Part shown: positions 8,512-33,983 of the stretch, piece after piece
How positions within the stretch are numbered: the first letter of the stretch is position 1
Layout of the letters: every line of letters begins with the position of its first letter
Origin: Actinomycetota bacterium
GTDB lineage: Bacteria; Actinomycetota; Actinomycetes; Actinomycetales; Microbacteriaceae
Length of the DNA stretch: 64,000 bases
Direction: 5' to 3'
NCBI GenBank assembly: GCA_020160915.1
Contig: JAIUPK010000002.1
Coordinates: forward strand, 248,001-312,000
Program-made: the position numbers and the translations under genes
Notes under the pieces: generated by a model
Told to the model about the DNA's origin: nothing
Database searches by the model: none
The model's input: only the letters and a program-made list of their open reading frames with translations

Positions 8512-9351
8512 ATGAGAATCGCGGTCACGGGTGGAAACGGCAAACTCGGCAGGGTCACTGTGGAGGTTCTGCGCGCCGCGGGCCACGAGGTGGTCGTACT
8601 CGATCAGGCGGGCCCCGATCGCTCGGCCTTCACCCAGGTCGACATCACCGACTACGGGCAGGTGATCGACGCGCTGGCCGGCATCAACGACCGGCACGGT
8701 GGCGTGGATGCGATCGCCCACCTCGCCGCGATCCCCGCGCCCGGCATACTCCCGGATGCCGCGACCTTCCACAACAACGTCGTCGGCACCTTCAACGTGT
8801 TCCAGGCCGCCCGGCGCCTCGGTATCCGCCGCATCGCCTTCGCCTCCAGCGAGACAGTGCTCGGACTGCCCTTCGACGCCCCGCCACCCTACGTTCCCCT
8901 CGACGAGGAGTACGACACCCGGCCGGAGAGTGTCTACTCGCTGGGCAAGCATCTCGAGGAGGAGCTGGCGCGCAAGATCGCCCGCTGGGATCCCGAGCTG
9001 AGCATCACCGCACTGCGTTTCTCCAACGTGATGGTCGAGGCTGACTACGCCGAGTTCGCGTCGTTCACCGCCGAGGGCCGCAAGTGGAACCTCTGGGGCT
9101 ACATCGACGCGCAGGACGGCGCCGAGGCAATCCGTCTCGCACTCGAGGCGGGGCATCCGGGGTACGACGTGTTCGTGATCTTCGCAGGCGACACCGTGCT
9201 CGAGCGCCCGAACGCCGAGCTGATGGCCGAGTTCTTCCCCGGGGTCGAGGTGCGCGGCGAGCTCGGCGTGAACGACTCGCTCACGAGCACGGCCAAGGCG
9301 CGGCGCATCCTCGGCTGGCAGCCGAAGCACTCGTGGCGGGACGCCCGCTAG
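8512..9351 (+). CDS. NAD-dependent epimerase/dehydratase (extended SDR)
   Basis: 279-residue Rossmann protein. The cofactor loop TGGNGKLGR is at residues 6-14, the catalytic serine region is FASSETVLG and the YxxxK pair is in YSLGKHLEEE. The ATG is chosen because AAGGAGGAG ends about 9 bases upstream. A longer in-frame extension runs back through the operator and the antisense of the regulator, so it is rejected. The substrate is unknown, perhaps a sugar or uronate dehydrogenase-type reaction. It is divergent from GntR-lldD and shares their operator, so it is probably co-regulated. The stop overlaps that of rhaB. Confidence 0.8.
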   Translation: MRIAVTGGNGKLGRVTVEVLRAAGHEVVVLDQAGPDRSAFTQVDITDYGQVIDALAGINDRHGGVDAIAHLAAIPAPGILPDAATFHNNVVGTFNVFQAARRLGIRRIAFASSETVLGLPFDAPPPYVPLDEEYDTRPESVYSLGKHLEEELARKIARWDPELSITALRFSNVMVEADYAEFASFTAEGRKWNLWGYIDAQDGAEAIRLALEAGHPGYDVFVIFAGDTVLERPNAELMAEFFPGVEVRGELGVNDSLTSTAKARRILGWQPKHSWRDAR

Positions 9352-10751
9352 CGCGGTCGGTAGAGCACGGGCAGGAACGCGCCGGCGACCAGCGCCCGGA
9401 GCGACTCCAGCGAGCCACTCGCGAAGCCCAGGGCGCGGGCCTGCACGAGCACGTTGCCGATTGCGGTCGCCTCGACCGGTCCCGCCAGCACGGGAAGCCC
9501 GCTGCGGTCGGCGGTGAGCTGGCAGAGCAGCTCGTTCTGCGAGCCGCCGCCCACGATGTGGATGACCGACACCGTCTTGCCCGAGAGCTCGGTGGCCGTG
9601 CGCACCGCGTCTGCGAAGGCGACGGCAAGGCTCTCGACGATGCTGCGGACGAACTCGACCGGGGTCTGCGGCGCGGCGAGGCCGTGGGTCGTGCACCACG
9701 CGGCGATCCGTGCCGGCATGTCACCGGGCGGTAGGAACGACGCGTCGTTCGCGTCGAACACGCTCACCGGTGTCGTCAGCGCGGATGCCGCGGCCAGCAG
9801 CTCGGGCAGGTCGAGGTCGCGCTTGCCCTCGTCGTTGAACTGCCGCACCGACTCGCTGAGCAGCCACAGCCCCATCACGTTGTGCAGGTAGCGCACCCGT
9901 CCGTCGACGCCGCCCTCGTTGGTGAAGTTGGCGAGCCGGCTCGCCTCGGTTAGCACCGGCCTCTCCAGTTCGACGCCCACGAGGCCCCAGGTTCCGCATG
10001 AGATGTAGGCGAAGTCATCGGATGCCGCAGGCACCGCCACGACCGCCGACGCCGTGTCGTGCGATCCGACCGCCGTCACGCTCACGTCACCCCCCACGAT
10101 CGCGGCGGCCTCGGGACGCAGCGAGCCCAGCGGGGTGCCCGGGTCCACCAGCTCGGGGAAGATGCGGCGCGGCAGTGCGAGTCGCTCGATGAGCGCGTCA
10201 TCCCAGTCGCCGGTCGTCACGCTGAGCAGCCCGGTGGTCGACGCGTTGGTGCGCTCCGCGACGCGTCGGCCGGTGAGCCAGTAGGCGAGCAGGTCCGGGA
10301 TCAGCAGGAAGGAGTCGACCGAGTCGAGGTCAGCCTCGGCGGCGAACTGGTAGAGCGTGTTGAAGGGCAGGAACTGCAGGCCGTTGGCGGCGTAGAGCTC
10401 CTCGGGGCTGACGAGTGAGTGCACCCGCTCGACGCCGCGGGCGGTGCGCTCGTCACGGTAGTGGAAGGGGAGTCCGAGCATCCGGCCGCCCGTGAGGAGG
10501 GTGTAGTCGACAGCCCAGGAGTCGATGCCGATTCCGGCGAGCGTGGGCTCCTCGCGCAGCGCTGCAGTCAACCCGGCGAGGGCGTGGCTGTACAGGGCGT
10601 CGATGTCCCAGTGCAGGCCGCCGTCGCGCTGCACGGGACCGTTGGGGAAGCGCGCGACCGGCCGCACGCTCAACTCGTTGTGGTCGACGTGGCCGAGCAT
10701 CACCCGGCCGCTCGTCGCGCCCAGGTCGACCGCGGCGACGTAGCCCGTCAC
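9348..10751 (-). CDS. rhaB: Rhamnulokinase
   Basis: FGGY-family sugar kinase, 467 residues from a GTG preceded by GGGAGGA. It phosphorylates L-rhamnulose at C1. The N-terminal phosphate-binding loop is AAVDLGATSGRVMLG. GIDSWAVDYTLL and SHDTASAVVAVP match rhamnulokinase-specific segments. YISCGTWGLVGVELERPV and the C-terminal VSVIHIVGGGSQNELLCQLTA form the ATP-binding half. It lies 88 bases downstream of the aldolase/dehydrogenase on the same strand and completes RhaI -> RhaB -> RhaEW. Identification is firm from family resemblance plus context. Confidence 0.92.
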   Translation of the reverse strand: MTGYVAAVDLGATSGRVMLGHVDHNELSVRPVARFPNGPVQRDGGLHWDIDALYSHALAGLTAALREEPTLAGIGIDSWAVDYTLLTGGRMLGLPFHYRDERTARGVERVHSLVSPEELYAANGLQFLPFNTLYQFAAEADLDSVDSFLLIPDLLAYWLTGRRVAERTNASTTGLLSVTTGDWDDALIERLALPRRIFPELVDPGTPLGSLRPEAAAIVGGDVSVTAVGSHDTASAVVAVPAASDDFAYISCGTWGLVGVELERPVLTEASRLANFTNEGGVDGRVRYLHNVMGLWLLSESVRQFNDEGKRDLDLPELLAAASALTTPVSVFDANDASFLPPGDMPARIAAWCTTHGLAAPQTPVEFVRSIVESLAVAFADAVRTATELSGKTVSVIHIVGGGSQNELLCQLTADRSGLPVLAGPVEATAIGNVLVQARALGFASGSLESLRALVAGAFLPVLYRPR

Positions 10752-10839
10752 TTCTGTCCTCCCGCGCGCGCGTTGCGGACTCGCGCGCACGTTACGGCGC
10801 GGCGAACTGTCCACACCATACGCGCGGGGCCCGGCTGGC

Positions 10840-12891
10840 TCATCGCAGGAACGCGGCCGCGACGCCGGCGTCCACGGGGATGTGGAGTCCGGTGGTGTGC
10901 GACAGGTCGGGGCCGGTGAGCACGGAGACCGCGTTGGCGACGTTCTCCGGCAGCACCTCGCGCTTGAGGATGGTGCGTTGCGCGTAGAACTTGCCGAGGT
11001 CCTGCTCGTCGATGCCGTAGGTCTTGGCGCGGTTGGCGCCCCAGCCCGCGGCGAAGATCCCGGAGCCGCGCACGACGCCGTCGGGGTTGATGCCGTTGAC
11101 CTTGATGCCGTGCTCGCCGAGCTCGACCGCGAGCAGTCGCACCTGGTGGGCCTGGTCGGCCTTCGTCGCCGAGTAGGCGATGTTGTTGGGGCCGGCGAAG
11201 ACCGAGTTCTTGCTCGAGATGTAGATCACATCTCCGCCCATGCCCTGCTCGATCAGCACCGGTGCTGTGGCCTTCGATACGAGGAACGATCCCTTGGCCA
11301 TGATGTCGTGCTGGAAGTCCCAGTCCTGTTCGGTGGTCTCCAGCAGCGGCTTCGAGAGCGAGACTCCCGCGTTGTTGACGACGATGTCGAGGCCACCGAA
11401 GGCGAGCACGGCATCCTGCACCAGGGTTGCTATCGCCGCGGCATCCGTCACGTTGACCTGGAGGCCGACCGCGACGTCGGTGTCGCCGATCTCGGCCGCA
11501 GCGGCCTGCGCCTTGGCGAGGTCGAGGTCGGCGATCACGACGCAGGCGCCGTCCGCGGCGAGGCGGGTGGCGATGGCCTTGCCGATTCCGGATGCCGCGC
11601 CCGTCACCAGCGCGACACGCGTCGCGTGCGACTTCGGTTTCGGCATGCGGGCCAGCTTGGCCTCCTCGAGCGCCCAGTACTCGATGCGGAATTTCTCCGC
11701 GTCACTGATCGGCGCATACGACGAGATGGCCTCGGCGCCCCTCATGACATTGATCGCATTGACGTAGAACTCGCCGGCAACCCGCGCGGTCTGCTTGTTC
11801 GCGCCGTAGCTGAACATGCCGACGCCCGGCACGAGCACGATGAGCGGGTCGGCGCCGCGCATCGCGGGGCTTCCGGTGGTCGAGCTCGTCGAGACCACAG
11901 CGTGCTTCTCGTAGTAGCTCGTGTAGTCCTTCCGGTACGCCTCGTGCAGCTCCTTCAACCGGGCGATGGATGCCTCGACCGACGCGTTCGCCGGAAGGTC
12001 CAGCAACATCGGCTTGACCTTCGTGCGCAGGAAGTGGTCGGGGCAACTCGTGCCCAGCGCCGCGAGTCGGGGGGCGCTCGCCGACGCGAGGAAGTCGAGC
12101 ACCACGTCCGAGTCGGTGAAGTGCCCGACCATCGGCCGGTCGTGGCTCGCGATGCCCCTGATCGTGGCTGCGAGTGCTGCAGCCTTCGCGCGCCGCTCGG
12201 CGACCGGCAGTGCCGCGTTCTTCTTGACGGTCGCGCCGAACGGGTTCTTCTTGCCCTTGGCCGCGATGTACTCCTCGGCCGTTCGGATGATCCAGAGGCT
12301 GTTCTGCTCGGCCTCCTTCGAGGTCGCACCCCACGCGGTGATCCCGTGTCCGCCGAGGATCACTCCGACGGCCTGCGGGTTGGCCGCCTTGATCGCGGCG
12401 ATGTCGAGTCCGAGCTGGAAGCCGGGCCGACGCCAGTCGACCCAGGCGACCTTGTTGCCGAAGGCCTTCTTCGTGAGCTTCTCGCCATACTTCGCGGTCG
12501 CGAACGCGATGCCGGAGTCGGGGTGCAGGTGGTCGACGTGCGCGGCATCCACGAGCCCGTGCATGGCGGTGTCGATCGACGGCGCGGCGCCGCCCTTGCC
12601 GTGCAGCGTGTAGTCGAAGGCCGCGACCATCTCGTCTTCGCGGTCGAGCCCGGGGTAGACGTCGACGAGTGCGCGCAGGCGGTCGAGCCGGAGCACGGCG
12701 AGGCCGGACTCGGTGAGGGTTCCCAGGTCGCCGCCCGAGCCCTTCACCCACATCAGTTCGACGGGCTCGCCGGTGACCGGGTCGATCTCGGTTCCCTTCG
12801 CGGACGTGTTGCCGCCCGCGTAGTTGGTGACGCGAGGGTCGGAGCCCAGTCGGTTGGAGCGGGCGATGAGTTCGCCGGGCGTGGTCGCCAT
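10840..12891 (-). CDS. rhaEW: Bifunctional rhamnulose-1-phosphate aldolase / short-chain (lactaldehyde) dehydrogenase
   Basis: 683 residues with two fused enzymes. Residues about 1-390 are a class II aldolase domain with the zinc-site segment HVDHLHPD and GGHGITAWG. It cleaves L-rhamnulose-1-phosphate to dihydroxyacetone phosphate and L-lactaldehyde. Residues about 420-683 are an SDR with TGAASGIGKAIA near 427, NNAG, and YSATKAD near 568 with the catalytic Tyr/Lys, expected to oxidise lactaldehyde. The same fusion is known as RhaEW (YuxG) in Bacillus. The ATG has GGACTTTCG before it. It follows the DeoR gene by 46 bases. Confidence 0.92.
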   Translation of the reverse strand: MATTPGELIARSNRLGSDPRVTNYAGGNTSAKGTEIDPVTGEPVELMWVKGSGGDLGTLTESGLAVLRLDRLRALVDVYPGLDREDEMVAAFDYTLHGKGGAAPSIDTAMHGLVDAAHVDHLHPDSGIAFATAKYGEKLTKKAFGNKVAWVDWRRPGFQLGLDIAAIKAANPQAVGVILGGHGITAWGATSKEAEQNSLWIIRTAEEYIAAKGKKNPFGATVKKNAALPVAERRAKAAALAATIRGIASHDRPMVGHFTDSDVVLDFLASASAPRLAALGTSCPDHFLRTKVKPMLLDLPANASVEASIARLKELHEAYRKDYTSYYEKHAVVSTSSTTGSPAMRGADPLIVLVPGVGMFSYGANKQTARVAGEFYVNAINVMRGAEAISSYAPISDAEKFRIEYWALEEAKLARMPKPKSHATRVALVTGAASGIGKAIATRLAADGACVVIADLDLAKAQAAAAEIGDTDVAVGLQVNVTDAAAIATLVQDAVLAFGGLDIVVNNAGVSLSKPLLETTEQDWDFQHDIMAKGSFLVSKATAPVLIEQGMGGDVIYISSKNSVFAGPNNIAYSATKADQAHQVRLLAVELGEHGIKVNGINPDGVVRGSGIFAAGWGANRAKTYGIDEQDLGKFYAQRTILKREVLPENVANAVSVLTGPDLSHTTGLHIPVDAGVAAAFLR

Positions 12892-12916
12892 CGAAAGTCC
12901 TGTCAGATATTGAGCG

Positions 12917-12934
12917 GTTTAACAAAAACTAACA
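12917..12934 (-). promoter_or_regulatory. Possible DeoR operator upstream of rhaEW
   Basis: On the minus strand, TGTTAG and TGTTAA occur as direct repeats 10 bases apart in an unusually A/T-rich stretch between the DeoR stop and the rhaEW start. One-turn spacing suits a DeoR-family regulator. This is inference only. Confidence 0.35.
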
Positions 12935-12937
12935 GCA

Positions 12938-13687
12938 TCATCGCAGCTCGACAAGGTCACGGTAGGGATCGAGGCGCTCATCTGCTGTGGGCAGCTCGGT
13001 GATGAGCAGGTCGATGGACTGCCAGTCCAGGCCGCGAGCGAGCGCGCGCAGACCCAGCTTCGAGGCATCCACGAGCAGTACCGTGCGGTCGGCCTGTTCG
13101 GCGAAGCACCGCTTGACCTCGACCTCTGCCAAGGATGCCTCGCTGGGCCCGAACTCGGCGTCGACCGCCGACGCGGAGGTGAAGAAGACCGCGTAGCTCA
13201 GGCTGCGGGCGCCCAGGTGGGCGATCGGTCCGACGAAGCTGCCGGTGCGCTCCTCCAACTCGCCGCCCACCAGCACAGAGCGAACGCCCGGCCGTCGCCG
13301 TGCCGCGGCGGCATTCTCGACCGAATTCGTTGAGACCATCAGGTCACCGCCGTCGAGGCCGGACAGCAGGGCACCGCTGGTCGTTGAGGCGTCGAAGGCG
13401 ACCGCGCCCCGCGACGGGACCAGCGCGAGCGCCTTGCGAGCGATCTCGCTCTTCGCTGCCGACCGCGAGGCGGCTCGGGCGCCAAAGGGTTCGGGAAGGA
13501 TCGGCGCGACGGCGCCGCCACGCACGCGTCGCACCAGTCCCTCCGCCTCCAGATCGGCGAGGTCCCGACGCACCGTCATCACCGACACCCCGAGCTCCTC
13601 CGCGGCCGTGTCGAGGCGGATGACGCCGGCGCGCCCGAGTATCGACAGCAACAGCTCGCGGCGTTCGGTGCCGAGCAGTGGAGACAT
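12938..13687 (-). CDS. DeoR-family sugar regulator (candidate RhaR)
   Basis: 249 residues from the ATG at 13687; an upstream in-frame extension crosses the neighbouring promoter and is rejected. The N-terminal helix-turn-helix reads GTERRELLLSILGRAGVIRLDTAAEELGVSVMTVRRDL (split here: GTERRELLLSIL, then VSVMTVRRDLADLEAEG). The C-terminal DeoR sensor domain is of the sugar-phosphate-isomerase-like type (VAFDASTTSGALLSGL, VLVDASKLG). DeoR proteins next to rhamnose genes usually sense a phosphorylated intermediate. It is the first gene of a likely DeoR-rhaEW-rhaB transcript and has its own leaderless-type promoter. Confidence 0.8.
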   Translation of the reverse strand: MSPLLGTERRELLLSILGRAGVIRLDTAAEELGVSVMTVRRDLADLEAEGLVRRVRGGAVAPILPEPFGARAASRSAAKSEIARKALALVPSRGAVAFDASTTSGALLSGLDGGDLMVSTNSVENAAAARRRPGVRSVLVGGELEERTGSFVGPIAHLGARSLSYAVFFTSASAVDAEFGPSEASLAEVEVKRCFAEQADRTVLLVDASKLGLRALARGLDWQSIDLLITELPTADERLDPYRDLVELR

Positions 13688-13693
13688 GAGCAC

Positions 13694-13805: not shown

Positions 13806-15071
13806 ATGACCAAGGCGGGACCCTACGACGGCGTGACCTCATCCGAGGGCAGCATCGAACGCGCTATGGAGGCGGGCGGTGGCGTGCTGCGACTGGCTCC
13901 GGCCTGGGTGCCCCGGTCGTTCTGCACCCCGGGTCGACGTCTCCGACTCCACCCCGACGACTACTTTCCGCTGGGCAAGGAGCGGGGAGGAATCGACGAG
14001 CGCTGGTTCGCAAGCGCGATCCGGGCCGAGAATGGTCCGCTCACCGACCCCTATGAGGGGCTCAGTCTCGTGGTCGGGGCGGACGGGGAGGTCATCCCAT
14101 TCGATGAGTTCATCGCGCACCTCAAGGCGGAGGCGATCGGCTCGCTCTGGGGCGAGTACGGCACCTGGCCGATGTACTCCAAGTTCTTCGACAACCAGTT
14201 CCCGCTCCCGTTCCACTTGCACCAGAAGGACGAGCACGCGGCACTTGTCGGCAAACGGGGCAAGCCCGAGGCCTACTACTTCCCGCCTCAGCTCAACAAC
14301 CACGGCGGCGAGTTCCCGTACACCTTCTTCGGCCTCCACCCCGAGACGACCCGACAGCAGGTTCTTGACAAGCTCGAAGCGTTCCTGCGCGGCGGTGACA
14401 ACCGCATCACCGAGCTGTCGAGCGCGCATCGCATCACTCCGGGCACGGGGTGGGATGTGCCGCCGGGAGTCCTGCATGCCCCTGCGAGCATGTGCACCTA
14501 CGAGCCGCAGGCGGCCAGCGACGTCTTCGCCATGACCGAATCGTGGTCGAACAATCGCGAGGTTGCGGATGAGTTGCTCTGGAAGGACGTGCCCGCCGAT
14601 CGGGTGGGTGACCTGGAGTTCATCCTCGAGATCATCGACTGGGAGCTCAACGTCGATCCCGAGTTCTGGAGTCACCGTTTCACGCCGCCCGTGGAGACGG
14701 ATGCCAGCGCCGCGGCCGGTGGCGATCGGTATGTCGAGCGCTGGATCACCTACCGGTCGCCTGCGTTCAGCGCCAAGGAGCTCACCGTGGCACCGGGCTG
14801 CGAGGTCTCCATCGACGAGTCCGATGCGTACGGCTTCATCGCCGTCGACGGGTTCGGCGAGATCAATGGCCAGGAAGTCTCGGCGATCTCGTCGATCCGA
14901 TACGGACAGCTCTCGCACGACGAGTACTTCGTGACCTCATCCGCTGCCCAAGCGGGGGTGCGTATTCGCAACACCTCGCCGAGCGCCGACCTCGTGCTGC
15001 TCAAGCACTTCGGTCCCGGCAACCGGGAGCTCGCCGCCGACAGGGGCGCCGTCGCAGCGGAGCGCGCGTGA
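13806..15071 (+). CDS. Cupin, class I mannose-6-phosphate isomerase-like
   Basis: 421 residues from the ATG at 13806; an upstream TTG would lie inside the operator and is rejected. It is a two-cupin-domain protein of the phosphomannose isomerase-like group. FPLPFHLHQKDEHAAL (near residue 135) has the His-X-His and Glu/His ligand pattern, and DVPPGVLHAP (near 220) supplies the second cupin motif. Sequence conservation suggests a sugar or sugar-phosphate isomerase, but no substrate is evident and it is not a standard ManA. It is followed with a 4-base overlap by a DUF4432 protein and sits inside the rhamnose locus. Confidence 0.6.
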   Translation: MTKAGPYDGVTSSEGSIERAMEAGGGVLRLAPAWVPRSFCTPGRRLRLHPDDYFPLGKERGGIDERWFASAIRAENGPLTDPYEGLSLVVGADGEVIPFDEFIAHLKAEAIGSLWGEYGTWPMYSKFFDNQFPLPFHLHQKDEHAALVGKRGKPEAYYFPPQLNNHGGEFPYTFFGLHPETTRQQVLDKLEAFLRGGDNRITELSSAHRITPGTGWDVPPGVLHAPASMCTYEPQAASDVFAMTESWSNNREVADELLWKDVPADRVGDLEFILEIIDWELNVDPEFWSHRFTPPVETDASAAAGGDRYVERWITYRSPAFSAKELTVAPGCEVSIDESDAYGFIAVDGFGEINGQEVSAISSIRYGQLSHDEYFVTSSAAQAGVRIRNTSPSADLVLLKHFGPGNRELAADRGAVAAERA

Positions 15072-16108
15072 CCAACCCGTCACCGACACTCCACGGTCGC
15101 CCTCTCGATGAGGCGGCACGACGGACCGGCATCCTCGCCCAGGTGGCTCGGATCGACCGCCTCGTGGAGGATGACGGACCCGCGCGGGGTGCCCGTCGCA
15201 TCCGCCTCGTCACCGGGGGCGGGCTCGAGGTGGAGATCCATCCCGATCGTGCGCTCGACCTCGGGCAGGTGACCTATCGCGGCACGCCGATCGCTTGGAT
15301 GTCGCCGACGGGAATGGTCGCCCCGGCGATCGCGGAGTGCACCGGGGACTCCTGGCTGCGATCGTTCGGTGGGGGTCTGCTGGCCACCTGCGGTCTCGAC
15401 ACCTACGGCCCGGCCACGACCGACGCTGGCGTGGAGTTCTCGCTGCACGGTCGAGTGGGCACCGTTCCCGCGCTGGTGACCCGGGCATCCATCAGTGGTA
15501 CGGAGCTCGTGGTCTCGGGGCTCGTGCGCCAGGCGAGCGTCTTCGGCGAGAACCTCGTGCTCGAGCGCACCTGGAGCGCTGACCTGGGTGGAACATCCCT
15601 GCGACTCACCGATGTGGTTCGCAACGAAGGGCTCGAGGACTCGGGGCACATGGTGCTCTACCACGTCAACATCGGATGGCCGCTGCTCGACGAATCCGCC
15701 GCGCTCGACATCCCCTCGCTCGAGGTCACGGCGAAGGACGGCGCAGCGTCGGCGGACCCCGTCGGCTGGCAGACGATCGAGGCACCCCAGCACGGCTACC
15801 GCGAGCGGGTGTACAGCCATCGATTCGTCGGGCAGGGAACCGTGCGGGTCGCGATCGACAACGCCGATCTCGACGTTCGATTCGAGCTCGGCTTCGACTC
15901 CTCGACCCTGCCAGCCCTGCACCAGTGGAAGATGAGCGGCGAGGGGCACTACGTCATGGGTCTCGAGCCGGTCAACGTGAGCACGTTCGGAGGGCGCGCG
16001 GGCGCAAGGGCAGCGGGAATCCTGCCCGTGCTCCCGCGCGGCGGTTCGGTCAGCTACACGATGGAGTTCGGGTTCGGGCCCTCGCAGCTCACGCGCTCTC
16101 GCGCGTGA
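15068..16108 (+). CDS. DUF4432 / aldose-1-epimerase-like protein
   Basis: 346 residues from a GTG overlapping the cupin stop. It has the galactose mutarotase-like beta-sandwich of the DUF4432 family. Recognisable stretches are IHPDRALDLGQVTYRG, LATCGLDTYGP, MVLYHVNIGWPLLDE and MGLEPVNVSTFGGRAGARA. The family is expected to bind a sugar and probably equilibrate anomers. Coupled to a cupin isomerase, it could feed it the correct anomer of an unknown sugar. The last 20 bases overlap the 3' end of the convergent LacI gene. Confidence 0.7.
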   Translation: MTNPSPTLHGRPLDEAARRTGILAQVARIDRLVEDDGPARGARRIRLVTGGGLEVEIHPDRALDLGQVTYRGTPIAWMSPTGMVAPAIAECTGDSWLRSFGGGLLATCGLDTYGPATTDAGVEFSLHGRVGTVPALVTRASISGTELVVSGLVRQASVFGENLVLERTWSADLGGTSLRLTDVVRNEGLEDSGHMVLYHVNIGWPLLDESAALDIPSLEVTAKDGAASADPVGWQTIEAPQHGYRERVYSHRFVGQGTVRVAIDNADLDVRFELGFDSSTLPALHQWKMSGEGHYVMGLEPVNVSTFGGRAGARAAGILPVLPRGGSVSYTMEFGFGPSQLTRSRA

Positions 16109-17108: not shown

Positions 17109-17126
17109 GTTCAGTGAACCAGTCTA
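17109..17126 (-). promoter_or_regulatory. LacI autoregulatory promoter/operator
   Basis: GTTCAGTGAAC (17109-17119) is a perfect 11-bp odd-centred palindrome. Immediately upstream on the minus strand is a -10-like TAGACT (17121-17126), whose first three bases are the stop codon of the esterase gene. The core matches the cupin operator at 13780-13790. Confidence 0.65.
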
Positions 17127-19234: not shown

Positions 19235-19264
19235 TGTGAATCGTTTCAATCAACGGACTATAGC
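19235..19264. promoter_or_regulatory. Rhamnose LacI box in rhaI/GH42-like divergent region
   Basis: TGAATCGTTTCA (19237-19248) is one of three TGAAWCGWTTCA boxes in the locus. On the plus strand it overlaps the spacer of a promoter with -35 TTGTGA (19235-19240) and -10 TATAGC (19259-19264), 18 bases apart. The rhaI promoter on the other strand is not clear. Confidence 0.65.
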
Positions 19265-24342: not shown

Positions 24343-24372
24343 GATATACCGAATCGTGATGAATCGTTTCAA
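24343..24372 (-). promoter_or_regulatory. GH78 promoter with rhamnose LacI box
   Basis: On the minus strand, -35 TTGAAA (24367-24372) and -10 TATATC (24343-24348) are 18 bases apart. The box TGAATCGTTTCA (24360-24371) covers the -35, so a bound LacI protein should block RNA polymerase. Confidence 0.75.
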
Positions 24373-24435: not shown

Positions 24436-24493
24436 TCGACAAGCGGCTGGTCGGGATGTATTGTCAACATTCACCGGTGATTGAAACGATTCA
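24436..24493 (+). promoter_or_regulatory. Transporter operon promoter with rhamnose LacI box
   Basis: A candidate -35 TCGACA (24436-24441) and -10 TATTGT (24459-24464) are 17 bases apart. Just downstream is TGAAACGATTCA (24482-24493), the reverse-complement form of the box found at 19237 and 24360. Confidence 0.65.
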
Positions 24494-26162: not shown

Positions 26163-27104
26163 ATGTTCACGTTCCTGGCCCGCCGAATAGCGTCGGGACT
26201 CGTTCTGATCGTCGTGGTATCAGCCATCGCGTTCACTCTCGTCTACAGCGACGGTAACCGGATCGCCCGGGTCATCCTCGGCCCGACCGCGTCGCAGGAG
26301 TCGGTGCAACAGCGCGCGGAGGAACTCGGACTCAACGACCCGCTTCCGGTGCAGTTCGCCCGATGGTTCGGGGGCCTCCTGCGAGGCGACCTGGGCAACT
26401 CCCTCAGCGACAACCGCTCGGTGATCGAGACGCTGTCATTGCGCATCCCGGTCACTCTCACGTTGGTGGTCTTCACCCTCATCGTCACCGTCATCATCGC
26501 GGTGGCCATCGGACTCTTCAGCGCCTACAAGGGCGGCTGGATGGACAGCGCGTTGCGCATCTTCGGAGTCTTCGGGTTCGCGACCCCTCACTTCATCATC
26601 GCCATCGCCCTGGTCGCGATCTTCGCCTTGGCACTCGGCGTTCTCCCCGCTACCGGGTACGTGCCTCCCGGCAAGTCGGTCGAGAAGTGGATCGCGTCGC
26701 TCATCCTCCCGGTCACGGCTCTGGCGGTCGGGACAATCGCGTCCGCCTCTCAGCAGATCCGGGGCGCGGTTCGCGATGTGCTGCGTCAGGACTACATCCG
26801 CACGTTGCGCAGCCGCGGCATCCCGCTGCCCGCCATCTACCTGCGGCACGCCCTCAAGAACGCCAGCGCTCCCGGGCTGACCACGGTCGCTCTCCAGTTC
26901 ATCGGACTGCTCGGCGGCGCCGTAGTCATCGAGCGTGTCTTCGCCCTGCCCGGACTGGGCACCCTCATCATCGACTCGGCCCTCAAGTCAGACATCCCCG
27001 TGATCATGGGAACCGTGTTGTTCAGCGTGGTCGTCGTCGTGGTCGTCAACGTCGTCGTCGACCTCACGATCGCGTGGGCCAATCCGAAAGCGAGAAACCG
27101 ATGA
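26163..27104 (+). CDS. ABC transporter permease, OppB/DppB type
   Basis: 313 residues with about six membrane segments. The first is right at the N-terminus (LVLIVVVSAIAFTLV), with the usual extracytoplasmic loop after it (LGLNDPLPVQFARWFGGLLRGDLGNSL). The coupling EAA-like loop is DYIRTLRSRGIPLPAIYLRHAL near residue 215. It forms the first transmembrane subunit of the rhamnoside importer. The stop overlaps the ATG of the next gene (ATGA), so production of the two halves is coupled. Confidence 0.88.
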   Translation: MFTFLARRIASGLVLIVVVSAIAFTLVYSDGNRIARVILGPTASQESVQQRAEELGLNDPLPVQFARWFGGLLRGDLGNSLSDNRSVIETLSLRIPVTLTLVVFTLIVTVIIAVAIGLFSAYKGGWMDSALRIFGVFGFATPHFIIAIALVAIFALALGVLPATGYVPPGKSVEKWIASLILPVTALAVGTIASASQQIRGAVRDVLRQDYIRTLRSRGIPLPAIYLRHALKNASAPGLTTVALQFIGLLGGAVVIERVFALPGLGTLIIDSALKSDIPVIMGTVLFSVVVVVVVNVVVDLTIAWANPKARNR

Positions 27105-28867
27105 GCGTCGAACTCGGACTGCCCGCCACGGCAGAGCCCGGTACCTTCGTCCGTTTGGGGATGGTGCGCCGACTGGTCAAGAAGCCGACCGTCATCGTCG
27201 CGGTCGTGATCCTTGCCGTGGCTCTGTTCTTCGCCGTGTTCGGACGACTGCTCGCGCCGTTCGACCCGAACTACTCGGTGCTCGACATGATCAACATGCA
27301 GCCGTTCCAGTCCGACTTCATCCTCGGTGGGGACCGCGCGGGGCGCGACATCCTCAGTCGGCTCATGTTCGCGACAGCCAACAGTCTCGGCGGTGCTGCG
27401 ATCGCGGTCGTGGTGTCGACCCTTCTCGGCGTCACGTCGGGCCTGCTGGCTGGCTATTACTCGGGAACCATCGACGCGATCGGAGCCTGGGTCTCCAACG
27501 TGATCCAGGCTCTGCCCGGCATCATCGTGCTGATCGCGGTCTACGTCGTGGCGGGCCCGTCCACCGTGGTGAGCATGACTGTCGTGGGTATCCTGTTCGC
27601 GCCGGCGTATTTCCGGCTCGTGCGCAACGTGGTGATAGCGGTTCGCAACGAGCTCTATGTCGACGCGGCGAAGGTCGCGGGCCTCTCCGACGCGCGCATC
27701 ATCGGGCGTCACGTGCTGGTGGTGGTGCGGGCACCGATCATCATCGAGATGGCATTCGTCGCCGGGTTCGCACTGGTGATCCAGGCCAGCCTGGAGTTCA
27801 TCGGTCTCGGCTCGCCGGAGAACCCCACCTGGGGCGGAATGCTTCAGGACTCGTTCAACGCGCTCTACATCTCTCCGCTGGCCATCCTCTGGCCGGCCGC
27901 CGCGATCATCCTCACCGTGCTCGCCTTCGTACTGATCTCCAATGCCGTGCGCGACACCCTGGGGGACCCGCGCAACAGCGCCGGACGCAAGCGGCGCGCT
28001 GTCCAGGTCGATGCTCAGACGCAGGTGGAGGCATCCGACGCGTTCCTCAGCGTGAGCAACCTGTCCATCGCCTACCCGCTCTCCGCTCACGAGACCCGCG
28101 AGGTGGTCAAGGGGGTCAGCCTCGAGGTGAATCGCGGCGAGGTGCTCGGCCTGGTGGGCGAGAGCGGTTCCGGCAAGACTCAGACGGCGTTCGCGATCCT
28201 CGGGCTTCTACCGGAGGAGGCGATCGTCGCCTCCGGACGCATCGCTCTCGGCGGGCGGTCGCTGCTCGGGCTCTCCGAGAAGCAGCTCAATGCCCTGCGC
28301 GGAAACGACATCGCCTACGTGCCTCAGGAACCGATGACGAACCTCGATCCCGCCTTCACCGTGGGACAGCAGTTCGACTTCGCGATGCGCAAGAAGCTCA
28401 AGCTCACCAAGGCGCAGACCAAGGAGCGTGCGATCGCCCTGCTCGCCCGGGTCAACATCAATGACCCCGAACGGGTGCACGGTCTCTACCCCCACCAGCT
28501 GTCGGGTGGGATGGCGCAGCGCGTACTCATCGCGATCGCGGTCTCGTGCGACCCCGCGCTGCTGATCGCCGACGAGCCGACCACCGCACTCGACGTCACC
28601 GTGCAGGCCGAAGTGCTCGACCTGCTGCGAGACCTCCAGCGCGAGCGTTCCATGGCGATGATCCTGGTCACCCACAACTTCGGCGTCGTCGCCGACATCT
28701 GCGACCGGGTGGCCGTGATGAAGGACGGTCGCGTGGTGGAGACCGGGGACACCCGGTCGATCATCAGGGAGCCGCAGGATCCGTACACCCAGTTGCTGCT
28801 GGCATCCGTGCTCGACAACGCCCCGATGCGAGCGCCGCTCGATGCCGAGAAGGAGACCGCCTCATGA
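27101..28867 (+). CDS. Fused ABC permease (DppC type) and ATPase (DppD type)
   Basis: 588 residues joining two normally separate subunits. Residues about 1-295 are the second permease, with an N-terminal membrane segment, VLDMINMQPFQSDFILGGDRAGRDILSR, and the coupling loop NELYVDAAKVAGLSDARIIGRH. After a polar linker, residues about 305-588 form an ABC ATPase with Walker A GESGSGKT near 352, Q-loop YVPQEPM, signature LSGGMAQRV near 466, Walker B LLIADEPT near 486 and H-loop VTHNFG near 522. There is no frameshift or stop at the junction, so the fusion looks genuine. The ATG at 27101 overlaps the upstream stop. Confidence 0.88.
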   Translation: MSVELGLPATAEPGTFVRLGMVRRLVKKPTVIVAVVILAVALFFAVFGRLLAPFDPNYSVLDMINMQPFQSDFILGGDRAGRDILSRLMFATANSLGGAAIAVVVSTLLGVTSGLLAGYYSGTIDAIGAWVSNVIQALPGIIVLIAVYVVAGPSTVVSMTVVGILFAPAYFRLVRNVVIAVRNELYVDAAKVAGLSDARIIGRHVLVVVRAPIIIEMAFVAGFALVIQASLEFIGLGSPENPTWGGMLQDSFNALYISPLAILWPAAAIILTVLAFVLISNAVRDTLGDPRNSAGRKRRAVQVDAQTQVEASDAFLSVSNLSIAYPLSAHETREVVKGVSLEVNRGEVLGLVGESGSGKTQTAFAILGLLPEEAIVASGRIALGGRSLLGLSEKQLNALRGNDIAYVPQEPMTNLDPAFTVGQQFDFAMRKKLKLTKAQTKERAIALLARVNINDPERVHGLYPHQLSGGMAQRVLIAIAVSCDPALLIADEPTTALDVTVQAEVLDLLRDLQRERSMAMILVTHNFGVVADICDRVAVMKDGRVVETGDTRSIIREPQDPYTQLLLASVLDNAPMRAPLDAEKETAS

Positions 28868-29733
28868 CCGGCGCGCACGAGACCCTGCTGAGCATCCGCG
28901 ACGTGGTGATCGAGTACAAGCGCAGCGGCTGGCGTGCACAGCCGAACCGAGTGCTGCACTCGGTGTCGCTCGACATCCGCGAGGGCGAGACTGTCGGCCT
29001 GGTGGGGGAGTCCGGTTCGGGCAAGACCACGCTGGGTCGGGGCATCCTCGGTCTCGTGCCGATCGCATCCGGAACCGTCACCTACGACGGGCGGGACATC
29101 ACACACGTGTCGCGGCGGGAACGGCGCGGCCTGGCCAAGGAGATCCAGGTCGTGTTCCAGGATCCCTACTCGTCGCTCAACCCCTCTCTGCTGGTGTCCG
29201 ACATCCTCTCCGAGCCACTGCGGGCGGCAGGTGTCGCCGGTGGGGAGGCCCGGGCGCGCGTGAAGGATCTGCTCGACCGTGTCGGCCTGCCGACGGACGC
29301 ATCGCACCGCTACCCCAGCGAGTTCTCGGGCGGTCAGCGCCAACGCATCGCCATCGCGCGTGCGCTCGCGCTCGAACCCCGGTTGATCGTCTGCGACGAG
29401 CCCGTGAGCGCCCTCGACCTCTCCACGCAGGCCCGCGTGCTGGATCTGCTGGTCGAGATCCAGGAGCGCACCGGGGTCGCGCTGCTGGTGATCTCACACG
29501 ACCTCTCCGTGGTCAGGGCGGTCTGTCACCGTGTGGCAGTCATGTACCACGGCGAGATCGTCGAGCAGGGCACCACGGCCCAAGTCATCGACGACCCGCA
29601 GCACGACTACACGAAGCGCCTTCTGCTCGCGGCACCCGTGTCCGACCCGGACGAGCAGCAGAAGCGCCGGGAGGCCCGCCGACTGCTCAACGAGACCGCG
29701 CTCGCCGCGGATCGTGAGAGTGTCGGTGCCTGA
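28864..29733 (+). CDS. ABC transporter ATP-binding protein, DppF/OppF type
   Basis: 289 residues from the ATG overlapping the upstream stop. Walker A is GESGSGKTT near residue 50, Q-loop VVFQDPYSSLNP, signature FSGGQRQRI near 155, Walker B LIVCDEPVSALD near 175, and H-loop VISHDLS. The C-terminal tail (DPQHDYTKRLLLAAPVSDPDE) is typical of the oligopeptide/dipeptide importer class. It pairs with the ATPase half of the fused protein to power uptake. Confidence 0.9.
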   Translation: MTGAHETLLSIRDVVIEYKRSGWRAQPNRVLHSVSLDIREGETVGLVGESGSGKTTLGRGILGLVPIASGTVTYDGRDITHVSRRERRGLAKEIQVVFQDPYSSLNPSLLVSDILSEPLRAAGVAGGEARARVKDLLDRVGLPTDASHRYPSEFSGGQRQRIAIARALALEPRLIVCDEPVSALDLSTQARVLDLLVEIQERTGVALLVISHDLSVVRAVCHRVAVMYHGEIVEQGTTAQVIDDPQHDYTKRLLLAAPVSDPDEQQKRREARRLLNETALAADRESVGA

Positions 29734-30931
29734 CCGGATCGATCGCCTGCGAGTCGAGAGCGAGGTTCCGCTGGTTCTGCGCGCCGGGAACGATCGACTC
29801 GCCGTGAGGGGTGCCGACCATCTCGAGCAGACCGACGGAGGTCTGCGGGTACACCGGTTGCCCGAGCGAGCGATTCGACGCATCCACACCGAGTTCTTCC
29901 GATCGGTCGAACCTCAGGCTTCGGGGGTGCGCCTGGCGGCGCGGTCCCAGGCGTCGTGGATCGAGCTGACTCTTCGGACTGTCGCGCTGACGGTGGAGGG
30001 CGACGACCCGCTGTCATTCTGGGGGCGGATCGACCTGGTGATCGACGGTCGCCAGCACGGGTCGGTCGCACTCGCACCAAGTGCGGTTCGCACCGTCGAC
30101 TTCCTGACGAACAGCTCGACGGTCACACCCGGCGAGCCCCTGACGGTGCGGTTCGCCGATCTGCCAGCCAGTGACAAGACCATCGAGATGTGGTTGCCCC
30201 ACGATGTCGAAGTGACGCTCATCGACGTGCGCGCGGATGCGCCGCTGGCGGTGCCCGACGACGACCGGCCGGTCTGGGTCAACTACGGCAGTTCGATCAG
30301 TCACGGATTCAACGCGGCAGGACCGACCGGTACCTGGCCGGCCGTCGCGGCGACGACCGTCGATGTCGACCTGGTCAACCTCGGCTTCAGCGGCAGCGCA
30401 CTGCTCGACTCGTTCGTCGCTGAGGCCATCCGCGACCGTCCGGCCGACATCATCAGCCTCGAGATCGGAACGAACGTGGTCAACCACGACGCCTTCCGGG
30501 TGCGCACGTTCGTGCCCGCGGTGCACGCGTTCCTCGACATCATCCGGCAGGGGCATCCCACCTCGCCGCTGTGGGTGGTCTCGTCGGTCCTCTGTCCTAT
30601 CGTCGAGGATCGCCCGGGCCCGACGACGATGGTCGGACCGCCGGGCGAGCGAACCGCCATCGCCGAGGGACTGCCGGAGGACCTGGTGCGAGGTCGCCTG
30701 AGTCTCGGGTTGATCCGCGACCTGCTTGCCGCTGTCGTCGCCTCGCGGGCGGCTGAGGATCCGAACCTGCACTACCTCGACGGCCGCCTGCTCTACGGCG
30801 AGACGGAGCACGAGGCGATGCCCATGGTCGATGGCCTGCATCCGGATGCGCCGGCGCAGCTGCACATCGGACGTCGCTTCGCCGAGCTGGTGCTCGAGCC
30901 CACCGTGAACACCCGAGAAAGGGGTGACTGA
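29726..30931 (+). CDS. SGNH/GDSL hydrolase (putative carbohydrate esterase)
   Basis: About 401 residues. In-frame GTGs occur at 29714, 29720 and 29726; the last is chosen for the short overlap with the ATPase stop and GAGAG ahead of it. An N-terminal beta-rich domain of about 170 residues precedes the SGNH domain. Block I is NYGSSISHG near residue 188 with the nucleophile Ser. The GxN-type block is EIGTNVVNHD near 248, and block V is DGLHPDAPAQ near 369 with the Asp/His pair. No signal peptide. It probably removes acyl groups from imported rhamnosides; this role comes from its place in the transporter operon. Confidence 0.78.
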   Translation: MPDRIDRLRVESEVPLVLRAGNDRLAVRGADHLEQTDGGLRVHRLPERAIRRIHTEFFRSVEPQASGVRLAARSQASWIELTLRTVALTVEGDDPLSFWGRIDLVIDGRQHGSVALAPSAVRTVDFLTNSSTVTPGEPLTVRFADLPASDKTIEMWLPHDVEVTLIDVRADAPLAVPDDDRPVWVNYGSSISHGFNAAGPTGTWPAVAATTVDVDLVNLGFSGSALLDSFVAEAIRDRPADIISLEIGTNVVNHDAFRVRTFVPAVHAFLDIIRQGHPTSPLWVVSSVLCPIVEDRPGPTTMVGPPGERTAIAEGLPEDLVRGRLSLGLIRDLLAAVVASRAAEDPNLHYLDGRLLYGETEHEAMPMVDGLHPDAPAQLHIGRRFAELVLEPTVNTRERGD

Positions 30932-30932
30932 C

Positions 30933-31919
30933 ATGTCCCATTCCGTGCGTGCCGTCGTCTCGGCCCGGCCCGACCAGGTCGCTGTCGAGGAGATCTCCCT
31001 CGCGCCGCTCGGCGCCGACCAGGTGATGATCCGAACCCTGCATTCGGGGGTGAGCACCGGCACCGACAAGTGGGTGCTTCAGGGCAAGTTCACGTGGGGC
31101 AACGCCCAGTACCCGCTGTGCCCCGGCTATCAGAGGGTCGGGGTGATCGAGGAGCTCGGCGCCGACGTCACGGCGTTCCGGGTCGGGCAGGTCGTTGCGA
31201 CGACGACGAGCGTAGGTCTCGAGGGCGTGCATCCGTTCTGGGGGGCACACATTGAGCGCGCCGCCTCAGCGCAGGGGGCGGTCTACCCTGCAGACGGAGT
31301 CGACCCCCGGGCCGCCTCGCTCTTCGTGTCGGCACAGGTCGGCTACAACGCGGCGTCGCGAGTGACCGGTGCGCCGGGCGACGGTGTCATTGTCGTGGGC
31401 GACGGCATCATCGGGTCGTCGGCCGCTCTCTGCGCGCGAGCGCGGGGCTTCCGGGTGCTCATGGTGGGGCGTCACGACACTCGTCTTGCACCGCTCGCCG
31501 AGCTGGGCATCCACACTCTCAACAGTCGAACCGGGTCGCTCGACGCGGTCGCGTCCTTCGATCCGGTCGCGGCGATCGACACGATCCACAGCCTCGACTC
31601 GTTCGCCACCTACTTCCCTGCCCTGCCGATCCGGTCGGGTCAGGTCGTCTTCAGCGGTCACAGCCCGGGAGGCGTCACCACCTGGGGTGACATGGAGGCG
31701 ATGCAGAAGAAGGAGCTCACGGCGCATTTCGTGTCCGGCTGGACTCCCGAGCGCCTCACCGCGACCCTGCAGCTCATGCGATCAGGCGATCTCCCCCTGG
31801 AGCGGCTGGTCGGCTCTGTAGCGCGCGGTACGGAGGCGATCGTAGGCCTTCTCACCGACGTCATCAACGGTGGCCTCGAACCGGTCGCCGCAACCATCGA
31901 GTGGGGGGACCCGTCATGA
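30933..31919 (+). CDS. Medium-chain dehydrogenase/reductase, non-zinc-type
   Basis: 328 residues from the ATG at 30933, 2 bases after the preceding stop, with GAAAGGGG as ribosome site. It has a GroES-like N-terminal domain (SGVSTGTDKWVLQGKF, PLCPGYQRVGVIEELG) and a Rossmann domain (VIVVGDGIIGSSAALCARARG near 145). The usual catalytic-zinc Cys and GHE residues are not seen: STGTD replaces CGTD and PGYQ replaces GHE. BchC-like proteins share this look. Substrate unknown; oxidation or reduction of a sugar released from the imported rhamnoside is possible. Confidence 0.7.
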   Translation: MSHSVRAVVSARPDQVAVEEISLAPLGADQVMIRTLHSGVSTGTDKWVLQGKFTWGNAQYPLCPGYQRVGVIEELGADVTAFRVGQVVATTTSVGLEGVHPFWGAHIERAASAQGAVYPADGVDPRAASLFVSAQVGYNAASRVTGAPGDGVIVVGDGIIGSSAALCARARGFRVLMVGRHDTRLAPLAELGIHTLNSRTGSLDAVASFDPVAAIDTIHSLDSFATYFPALPIRSGQVVFSGHSPGGVTTWGDMEAMQKKELTAHFVSGWTPERLTATLQLMRSGDLPLERLVGSVARGTEAIVGLLTDVINGGLEPVAATIEWGDPS

Positions 31920-32839
31920 AGATCGTCATCACCGGAGCAGCGGGGGGAATCGGCCGTCGCGTCACCGCCGCCCTCGAGCAGGCCCACGACCTCCTTCTGG
32001 TCGACTCCGTGGCGCCCGAGGAGGCCACGGTCTTCGACATGAAGTCACCGACCGGGCGGCGGCTCGCGCCGCTCACTCCGAATGTGCCCTACGTGCGCGC
32101 CGACATCGGCGAGCCCGCAGCACTGGCCGACACCTTCCGTGGCGCCGACGCCGTCATCCATCTGGCCGGCTGGCCCACCGGTGAGTGGGACAACGCGATG
32201 CAGATCATGACCACGAACGTGCTCGGCACGTTCTCGGTGTACACCGCCGCGCGGGATGCGGGGGTGCGGCGGGTGGTCAACGCCTCGAGCATCAACGCCT
32301 TCGGCTCGTTCTTCTGGAGGGTGCACCCCGAGAGTCCGGTGCGCAGCCGCCTCCCGTTGTCCGAGGACGAGCGACGGGTCCCCGAGGACCCATACAGCCT
32401 GAGCAAAGGTGTCACCGAGGAGATCGGTGAAACGTTCCGGCGGGCCTGGGGGATCGAGGCCGTGAACCTGCGCTTCGCTGCGGTGTGGTCGGAGGAGAAG
32501 TACGAGGAGCTCCTGACGACCGGCCTGCCGGTCACGGAGGCGTGGGCCGACGACCTCTTCCAGTGGGTTCACCCCAACGATGTACGTGACGGCATCATCC
32601 TCGCGGCAACGGTTGACCAGACTACGAGTGAGCCCATCGTGCTCGCGGCCGCCGATACGCGGGCACCCGAGGATACGCTCGAGCTCATCCGCCGATTCAA
32701 GCCGGAGTTGGAGCGGGAGTTGCGTGAGCCGCTTCCCGGCCGCAGTTCACTGCTGTCCATCACCCGCGCACGATCCTTCCTCGGGTTCGAGCCCCGGCAT
32801 TCGTTCGCTGCCGCCGCGCAGTCCGACGGACAGCGCTAG
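31916..32839 (+). CDS. NAD-dependent epimerase/dehydratase (extended SDR)
   Basis: 307 residues from the ATG overlapping the upstream stop; a 5-codon upstream start is possible but unneeded. The Rossmann loop is ITGAAGGIGRR at residues 5-15. VIHLAGWPTGEW, NASSINAFGSFF and YSLSKGVTEEIGE carry the catalytic Ser, Tyr and Lys. It resembles uronate dehydrogenase/UDP-glucose epimerase relatives. Last gene of the transporter operon. With the MDR protein it suggests the imported compound carries a second sugar besides rhamnose, such as a uronate; this is inference. Confidence 0.75.
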   Translation: MKIVITGAAGGIGRRVTAALEQAHDLLLVDSVAPEEATVFDMKSPTGRRLAPLTPNVPYVRADIGEPAALADTFRGADAVIHLAGWPTGEWDNAMQIMTTNVLGTFSVYTAARDAGVRRVVNASSINAFGSFFWRVHPESPVRSRLPLSEDERRVPEDPYSLSKGVTEEIGETFRRAWGIEAVNLRFAAVWSEEKYEELLTTGLPVTEAWADDLFQWVHPNDVRDGIILAATVDQTTSEPIVLAAADTRAPEDTLELIRRFKPELERELREPLPGRSSLLSITRARSFLGFEPRHSFAAAAQSDGQR

Positions 32840-32981
32840 CCCGTCAGGGCAGGCGCCCGATGGCTGATTGAGGCATGGTGGTTGCGACGATTACTCTTGA
32901 TCGACGAAGCACGATCGGCTCCGCGTCCCGATGGTCGAGGAGATTGCCGCTGGCGTCGGAGCAACTGATCAGGAGGTCGTC

Positions 32982-33983
32982 GTGACCGTGAGCGTTCGGG
33001 ATGTCGCCGCTGCCGCGGGTGTCTCGGTGGGCACGGTCTCGAATGTGCTCAACCGTCCCGACATCGTCGCGCCCGCGACGGTCGAGCGCGTCCAGGCGGC
33101 CATCGACTCGCTGGGCTTCATCCGCAACGATGCGGCACGTCAGCTGCGGGCGGGCAAGAGCCGGACCATCGGCATGGTCGTGCTGAACGTCGGCAACCCC
33201 TTCTTCACCGACGTGGCTCGTGGTGCGGAGGTGCGTGCGAGTGCGGCCGGTATGAGCCTGCTCCTCGGCAACAGCGACGAGAAGTACGACCGCGAGCTGG
33301 CCTACTTTGACCTGTTCGAGGAGCAGCGGGTGCACGGGCTGCTCGTCACGCCGGTGGGCGACGACCTGAGCCGTCTGGAGCGAATCAGCAACAACGGCAC
33401 GCCGGTGGTGCTTGTCGACCGTGAGGCCGATCCCAGCGCTTTCTCGTCTGTCTCGGTGGACGACGTCAGCGGGGGATTCCTCGCGACCCGCCACCTGCTG
33501 GACACGGGCCGTCGTCGGCTCGCCTTCGTCGGTGGGCCGGCGTCGATGCGTCAGGTCGCGGATCGTCTCGCGGGCGCCCGTCGGGCGGTCTCCGAGGAGT
33601 CCGGAGCCACGCTCGAGCACATCCCGACCGATTCGATGACCGTCGAGCACGGGCGCGCCGCGGGCGAATGGATTCGTCTGCGCAGTCGGTCCGATCGGCC
33701 GGAGGCCGTCTTCGCCGGCAACGATCTGGTCGCGTTGGGAGTGCTCCAGGGCCTCATGATGCACAACGACGTGCGCGTACCGGAGGACGTGGCCCTCATC
33801 GGCTACGACGACATCGACTTCGCCAGCGCCGCGGTCGTGCCACTGTCATCCATCAGGCAACCGCGAATGCTGATCGGGCACACCGGAGTGGACCTCCTGC
33901 TGCGGCTGGCCGATGAGGGCGCCGACCACGAGCGGGTCGTCTTCCAGCCGGAGCTCGTTGTCAGGTCGTCGACAGCCGGGTGA
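32982..33983 (+). CDS. LacI-family regulator (candidate rhamnose-regulon repressor)
   Basis: 333 residues from a GTG with AGGAGG five bases upstream; an ATG 17 codons earlier has no ribosome site. The HTH is VRDVAAAAGVSVGTVSNVLN, with hinge RAGKSRTIGM. The sensor domain has the usual VLNVGNPFFTDVA, VVLVDREAD, AVFAGNDLVALG and VALIGYDDIDFA blocks. It lies 142 bases after the transporter operon on the same strand. As the LacI protein closest to the three TGAAWCGWTTCA boxes it is the best candidate to bind them; the other LacI gene has its own distinct operator. No box is seen before this gene. Confidence 0.82.
   Translation: MTVSVRDVAAAAGVSVGTVSNVLNRPDIVAPATVERVQAAIDSLGFIRNDAARQLRAGKSRTIGMVVLNVGNPFFTDVARGAEVRASAAGMSLLLGNSDEKYDRELAYFDLFEEQRVHGLLVTPVGDDLSRLERISNNGTPVVLVDREADPSAFSSVSVDDVSGGFLATRHLLDTGRRRLAFVGGPASMRQVADRLAGARRAVSEESGATLEHIPTDSMTVEHGRAAGEWIRLRSRSDRPEAVFAGNDLVALGVLQGLMMHNDVRVPEDVALIGYDDIDFASAAVVPLSSIRQPRMLIGHTGVDLLLRLADEGADHERVVFQPELVVRSSTAG

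Follow-up and report, generated by a model that had tools for sequence, protein, structure and literature searches.

Is a rhamnoside carried into the cell whole and only then cut apart? The question is raised by a locus in the window analysed here (C2:248001–312000, a stretch of 64,000 nucleotides) of an actinobacterial genome of 2.93 Mb in 8 contigs, where genes for a GH78 α-L-rhamnosidase, further hydrolases, the L-rhamnose enzymes and an Opp-type ATP-binding cassette (ABC) importer lie together. Whole-rhamnoside uptake with intracellular breakdown, as an initial annotation of this DNA had proposed, is in our judgement the probable answer and is well supported: a simple scan finds no export signals on the hydrolases, the importer has a binding lipoprotein, operators are shared, and a syntenic core recurs in a genome of another genus (G075; 38.9 kb fetched, matches counted at E 1e-8). 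Gene content, the missing export signals, palindrome distribution and synteny are what we observe; from them we infer the substrate, the order of the steps, the identity of the LacI protein at the palindrome, and all catalytic roles. The locus is a concrete, testable case of Opp-type whole-rhamnoside import in an actinobacterium.

In the proposed route, the binding lipoprotein and the importer would take up a small glycoside or oligosaccharide that bears rhamnose. The GH78 enzyme would free L-rhamnose in the cytoplasm, where a GHL6 hydrolase would cleave a second linkage and an SGNH esterase, joined in this strain by an HSL-type esterase, would strip ester groups. By the predicted phosphorylating route, RhaI, RhaB and RhaEW would convert L-rhamnose into dihydroxyacetone phosphate and L-lactate; LldD could turn this L-lactate into pyruvate, completing the route. 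LacI regulator 2 would govern the rhaI, GHL6, GH78 and importer operons via the palindrome TGAAWCGWTTCA, and an isomerase-fold (“cupin”) protein and a DUF4432 protein would probably process another released sugar.

Genes were called by codon-position GC first and by family searches (Pfam, NCBIfam) second. Every gene named in the initial annotation was found at about the coordinates given there. Its range, 9348..33983, stands for the genes that it spans and is too short at both ends: lldD on the left belongs to the neighborhood of the locus, and so, probably, does a cytochrome P450 cassette on the right.

The L-rhamnose route

Isomerase, kinase and aldolase/dehydrogenase are encoded together, the kinase scoring below its family cut-off; elsewhere the genome offers just two weak matches to it (25% and 33%), each over part of the protein.

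6467..7801, minus strand: lldD, FMN-type L-lactate dehydrogenase (named by eye from the sequence; a 73% identical gene lies beside rhaB in G075)
9348..10751, minus strand: rhaB, rhamnulokinase (TIGR02627, 441.8 bits, below the cut-off of 527.95; FGGY; 62% in G075)
10840..12891, minus strand: rhaEW, bifunctional rhamnulose-1-phosphate aldolase/lactaldehyde dehydrogenase (NF006188, 1298.6 bits, and TIGR02632, both above cut-off)
18005..19177, minus strand: rhaI, L-rhamnose isomerase (TIGR02635, 635.1 bits, above cut-off)

Hydrolases without evident export signals

Four hydrolases could act on an imported glycoside:

17124..18008, minus strand: HSL-type esterase, accessory (PF07859; NCBIfam LipP1, NF058653, below cut-off)
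19400..21496, plus strand: GHL6 hydrolase, GH29/GH151-related, of GH42-type architecture (alternative start 19358; Pfam GHL6 and Alpha_L_fucos)
21468..24296, minus strand: GH78 α-L-rhamnosidase, N-terminus not signal-like (Pfam rhamnosidase domains)
29720..30931, plus strand: SGNH esterase, SsfX3-like, N-terminus not signal-like (Pfam and structure relatives)

Export signals were scored, in a simple scan and not with a trained predictor, as the most hydrophobic 12-residue stretch (Kyte–Doolittle) within the first 35 residues. GH78, GHL6, HSL and SGNH reach 0.3 to 1.1 and the binding protein 2.1, on a scale that is not specific, since a cytoplasmic DeoR regulator scores 2.0. All four hydrolases lack a strongly hydrophobic N-terminus, in agreement with the earlier statement that they carry no signal peptide.

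The GH78 protein contains the catalytic six-hairpin domain (PF17389, 386.6 bits) and the motifs RDERWGWTGD and WERWDS, which we take to be the general acid and base Glu sites. The second glycosidase had been called “GH42-like”, a label that holds for its architecture and fold; by sequence it is a GHL6 and Alpha_L_fucos protein nearest to GH151 (a family described in PMC10154630), and membership of GH42 by sequence was rejected, as no GH42 Pfam match appears at E 0.001. Its closest solved relative by sequence is the GH151 α-L-fucosidase ALfuk2 (PDB 6tvk, E 2.1e-15), and a fold search with a predicted model of middling confidence (predicted local distance difference test, pLDDT, 66.9; built from 6 sequences) again places 6tvk first (E 5e-30), with GH42 chains next and GH164 chains after them; a relation to ALfuk2 is found in both sequence and fold. 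Candidates for the GH151 catalytic Asp and Glu, which stand at the ends of strands 4 and 6, are D147, present in all five sequences that span its site (the sixth is cut), and E268, which is invariant.

That the substrate is acylated, as had been suggested, is consistent with the two esterase folds, of which only SGNH is matched in the G075 locus. The proposal of a second sugar unit drawn from the MDR and SDR oxidoreductases is weak: we downgrade these proteins as evidence because neither is matched in the fetched G075 stretch, and a pattern scan of the MDR protein finds neither a GHE nor a CxxC zinc motif. GHL6, the isomerase-fold protein and DUF4432 together are the better, still indirect, sign of a second or modified sugar.

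8512..9351, plus strand: SDR of the NAD-dependent epimerase/dehydratase family, accessory (PF01370)
30924..31919, plus strand: MDR-family protein, BchC-like, accessory (Pfam, NCBIfam)
31901..32839, plus strand: SDR, distantly uronate-dehydrogenase-like, accessory (Pfam)

Two further GH78 genes lie on G000 contig 7. The second (890 aa; L026:6315–14197) has as neighbors a BD-FAE esterase, two FAH-family hydrolases, two SDRs and an IclR regulator, a set that may encode a sugar route of the oxidative, non-phosphorylating kind. The third (746 aa; L114:7410–13601) is a further pairing of importer and rhamnosidase: around it lie genes for an ABC ATPase, a BPD_transp_2 permease and a Peripla_BP_4 binding protein, as well as one for an FMN reductase.

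A complete Opp-type importer

The ABC importer is complete, as had been claimed, with a binding lipoprotein, two permease domains and two ATPase domains:

24542..26083, plus strand: substrate-binding lipoprotein, SBP_bac_5 (Pfam; lipobox LVGC)
26163..27104, plus strand: OppB-type permease (Pfam, NCBIfam)
27101..28867, plus strand: OppC permease and OppD ATPase in a single open reading frame, OppCD (end-to-end match in G075, 75%)
28864..29733, plus strand: OppF-type ATPase (Pfam)

From OppB through the downstream SDR, each gene shares 4 to 19 bases with the next (taking the OppF start as 28864), and because of these overlaps SGNH, MDR and SDR are very probably co-transcribed with the importer.

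A palindrome shared by rhaI, GH78 and the importer

The palindrome TGAAWCGWTTCA has three exact copies in the whole 2.93-Mb genome and all three are in this locus; base composition predicts about 0.03 copies of the 12-mer, fewer than are observed, and the occurrence exceeds chance. A looser pattern, TGAANCGNTTCA, adds two TGAAGCGCTTCA sites elsewhere in the genome.

19237..19248, no strand: operator-like palindrome TGAATCGTTTCA, between rhaI and GHL6
24360..24371, no strand: palindrome TGAATCGTTTCA, upstream of GH78
24482..24493, no strand: palindrome TGAAACGATTCA, upstream of the binding protein gene

One candidate operator is thus common to a rha gene, a rhamnosidase and the importer (rhaI/GHL6 and GH78/binding protein). 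G075 has four copies, three of them at promoters: rhaI/cupin, GHL6/binding protein, and GH78-like/LacI regulator 2. Three regulators are encoded in the locus:

12938..13687, minus strand: DeoR-family regulator (PF00455, PF08220)
16089..17090, minus strand: LacI-family regulator 1 (PF00356, periplasmic-binding-like domains)
32931..33983, plus strand: LacI-family regulator 2, candidate palindrome reader (58% match in G075, palindrome upstream there)

Since regulator 2 is kept in G075 and has a site upstream there, it is our best candidate for the palindrome reader. The G075 stretch has no second LacI gene.

Conservation of the locus

The G075 stretch has lldD, rhaB, rhaEW, rhaI, cupin, GHL6, binding protein, OppB, OppCD, OppF, SGNH and LacI regulator 2 at 58–80% identity; DUF4432, DeoR, HSL, MDR, either SDR and the P450 find no match in it. 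Among 149 other genomes of the family, only G075 has matches above 60% to both GHL6 and the binding protein, and this genome is alone among 27 of its genus in having a binding-protein match above 60% (two others reach 37–39%). rhaEW itself is found in 20 of the 27.

The arrangement of the rha locus varies between the fetched genus relatives. In three of the six with a fetched rha stretch (G539, G542 and G543), about 20 kb at most separates a GH78 match from rhaEW; the stretch of G539 also has a different Opp-type importer. In G082, the locus contains LacI regulator 2, rhaI, LacI regulator 1, a Gfo/Idh gene, a CUT2 sugar importer, DUF4432, cupin, DeoR, rhaEW, rhaB and lldD: our window looks like this locus minus the CUT2 importer and the Gfo gene, plus a GHL6/GH78/Opp/SGNH module. 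CUT2 probes find only general ABC-ATPase matches in the window.

The wider context comes from relatives of the cupin protein, which number at least 574 in one scan; the best 80 of these (55–75% identical, from several phyla) were taken as loci, 21 actinobacterial and 59 others. Several are short contigs, on which absent neighbors mean little, and gene-cluster counts are too low in GC-rich loci, where shadow open reading frames displaced real genes (cupin itself is counted in 64 of 80); of the counts given here, only those of a xylose-isomerase-like protein and a 3-keto-disaccharide hydrolase are of this clustered kind, the others coming from direct matches to genes of the window. The 21 actinobacterial loci have a CUT2 ATPase in 18, a rha gene in 17, a DeoR match above 100 bits in 18 and an lldD match above 300 bits in 10, and none has a match to the binding protein, OppB, GH78 or SGNH above the bit thresholds used. 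Four actinobacterial cupin loci (L030, L037, L043 and L051) have no rha gene above 200 bits within about 10 kb; in L043 an 88% rhaI match is present, scoring below 200 bits.

The isomerase-fold protein and DUF4432

Two adjacent genes may act on a further sugar:

13806..15071, plus strand: phosphomannose-isomerase-fold (“cupin”) protein (matched by neither Pfam nor NCBIfam; metal-site-like H137, H139, E155 and H224)
15068..16108, plus strand: DUF4432 aldose-1-epimerase-like protein (PF14486, E 5.1e-87; 3ty1, E 1.5e-23)

By sequence, the cupin protein does not join the type I phosphomannose isomerases: at E 0.001 neither Pfam nor NCBIfam matches it, and solved relatives reach E 0.17 at best. By fold it resembles them, the closest folds to its AlphaFold2 model (pLDDT 81.6) being 1zx5, 5zvr and 1qwr, all type I mannose-6-phosphate isomerases. 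H137, H139, E155 and H224 are invariant across 38 sequences and are, by analogy with phosphomannose isomerase, presumably the metal ligands. The protein likely isomerizes a sugar released upstream.

DUF4432 accompanies cupin in 56 of the 80 best loci, within 300 bp in 54. The 59 non-actinobacterial loci contain Gfo/Idh in 49, a xylose-isomerase-like protein in at least 44 and a 3-keto-disaccharide hydrolase in at least 30. Five of these 59 loci, and none of the 21 actinobacterial ones, have a GHL6 relative no more than 500 bp away from cupin: the neighbor link between GHL6 and cupin is real but uncommon. One Gfo/Idh neighbor, from another phylum, matches levoglucosan dehydrogenase below cut-off. 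A levoglucosan-like 3-oxidation route for cupin was considered and rejected, the only Gfo/Idh-like match in the window (758–1783, 31%) lying 12 kb off.

In the open-licence PMC literature we found no paper joining DUF4432 with a glycoside, and none combining three or more of DUF1080, 3-keto-glycoside, Gfo/Idh/MocA, cupin, rhamnose and DUF4432. The word “cupin” is absent from PMC7676230, as far as its main text was available, which also counted against the levoglucosan-like route, and the available parts of PMC9007349 and PMC4445282 have nothing on rhamnose, cupin or DUF4432.

Observations that weigh against import and intracellular cutting

Several observations count against the route proposed here. 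Its kinase is the first, with the TIGR02627 score given above. The palindrome is the second: 18 other genus genomes have 0 to 3 copies (at least one in 10, none in 8), near rhaEW in some and not in others, and in the window rhaB–rhaEW has no palindrome upstream. Because of this absence and the adjacent DeoR gene, a regulator other than the palindrome reader may control rhaB–rhaEW. The isomerase-fold protein is the third, as rhaEW exceeds 300 bits in only 2 of the 59 non-actinobacterial cupin loci; the protein is therefore not tied to rhamnose outside Actinobacteria. GHL6 has a 40% relative in G306, from another family of the order, and the 19.9 kb fetched there hold no other gene of the locus except a 33% rhaEW match.

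The binding protein raises a further objection. NCBIfam matches it, always below cut-off, to importers of peptides, glutathione, nickel and opines. Its nearest solved relatives are similar, with opine, peptide, heme and nickel binders among them and none named a sugar binder, as would suit an importer for peptides or a metallophore that stands beside the rhamnose locus by chance, with rhamnosides being cut elsewhere. We think this quite improbable, since the importer has its palindrome in common with rhaI and GH78, is joined to SGNH through overlapping genes, and keeps the order GHL6–binding protein–Opp–SGNH beside rha genes in G075.

The last point concerns GH78. In its place G075 carries a GH78-like enzyme so divergent (rhamnosidase domain 70 bits against 387) that GH78 itself is not a fixed part of the locus. 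GHL6 is kept there at 66%, and one could suppose from this exchange that GHL6 is the main rhamnosidase and GH78 an accessory. The closest solved relative of GHL6 speaks against such a role, being a GH151 α-L-fucosidase, and we know of no rhamnosidase activity in that family; we regard the supposition as improbable and retain GH78 as the likely source of free L-rhamnose.

The P450 cassette

Tail to tail with LacI regulator 2 lies a four-gene cassette (34000–37541), followed by a regulator:

34000..34920, minus strand: NHL-repeat protein (Pfam)
34911..36110, minus strand: cytochrome P450 without the usual I-helix threonine (start set by eye)
36124..37302, minus strand: ferredoxin reductase (named by eye)
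37299..37541, minus strand: ferredoxin (named by eye; start uncertain)
37655..38545, plus strand: AraC-family regulator (named by eye; the P450 cassettes of G556 and G542 have adjacent relatives at 42% and 45%)

NHL, P450, reductase and ferredoxin genes adjoin LacI regulator 2 in G082 and G543 too, which are probably close kin, as their matches are near-identical; in G556, three of the four come after a LacI2-like gene. A threonine in the I helix is the usual P450 consensus, and it is missing from all five P450s matched at E 1e-70 among the 27 genus genomes.

The location of these P450s admits a different account of the locus, in which the aglycone or a modified sugar is the real food, the P450 cassette, MDR, SDR and SGNH oxidize or deprotect this other part, and rhamnose is an uptake handle only. 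In four of the five genomes the P450 relative lies 2.5, 10, 13 or 22 kb from rhaEW, and in the fifth (G542, where the gap is 1.4 Mb) a 36% SGNH relative adjoins the cassette. Under random placement, four or more of the five would fall inside 25 kb with p ≈ 4e-7, not a true significance because the genomes are related and this one was preselected. The promoter region of the cassette, on the other hand, has no palindrome, and the P450 is unmatched in the fetched G075 stretch. We consider this account unlikely and still favor rhamnose as a substrate that is catabolized in its own right.

The G542 region (L139:4058–16739) holds the cassette, AraC and SGNH relative, far from the rha genes; it has two TGAATCGATTCA palindromes. 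Also recognized there by eye are an importer of CUT1 type and a large protein that is secreted.

A joint reading, speculative and on balance doubtful, would have the portable GHL6/isomerase-fold/DUF4432 set process an unrecognized 6-deoxy or methylated sugar in many phyla, and the P450 cassette oxidize, perhaps O-demethylate, the sugar or aglycone inside the cell before or after the GH78 cut. If true, these would be two unrecorded parts of rhamnoside metabolism. The isomerase-fold family, with its numerous relatives and no Pfam match, and the P450 cassette are the most promising leads.

Comparison with known systems

Individual proteins of the locus invite comparison with known ones. Marine Bacteroidetes P450s O-demethylate 6-O-methyl-D-galactose (PMC8360166, in the part available), and the P450 of the window shares with them a setting of sugar degradation; kinship with these algal-sugar demethylases was rejected, no structure so named being among the 60 best of its 401 solved relatives. 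The cupin protein has the fold of type I mannose-6-phosphate isomerase and an invariant His/His/Glu/His set, at 10–16% identity to the solved chains. GHL6 shares 17% identity with ALfuk2 in structural alignment and sits among rhamnose genes.

At the level of the whole locus, likened here by described genes and regulation, the accessible text on the RhaR regulon of Thermotoga maritima (PMC3750489) describes an importer, RtpEFGKL, that is rhamnose-induced, together with glycoside hydrolases and rhamnose enzymes, the set being co-regulated. That regulon differs in its DeoR regulator and in RhaD, the form present in Thermotogales (PMC3870299).

Actinomycetales RhaR regulons include ABC importers and rhamnosidases (Rodionova 2013, PMC3870299), and in the portions of that paper available to us they resemble our locus (rhiLFG, RamA/RhmA): a LacI-type regulator, RhaEW replacing RhaD, and an ABC importer together with a rhamnosidase. 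Those portions say nothing of GHL6, SGNH, an isomerase-fold protein or a P450 cassette, and the importer of the window differs in being Opp-type, with permease and ATPase in one open reading frame. Importing first and cutting inside is thus a mode with published precedent.

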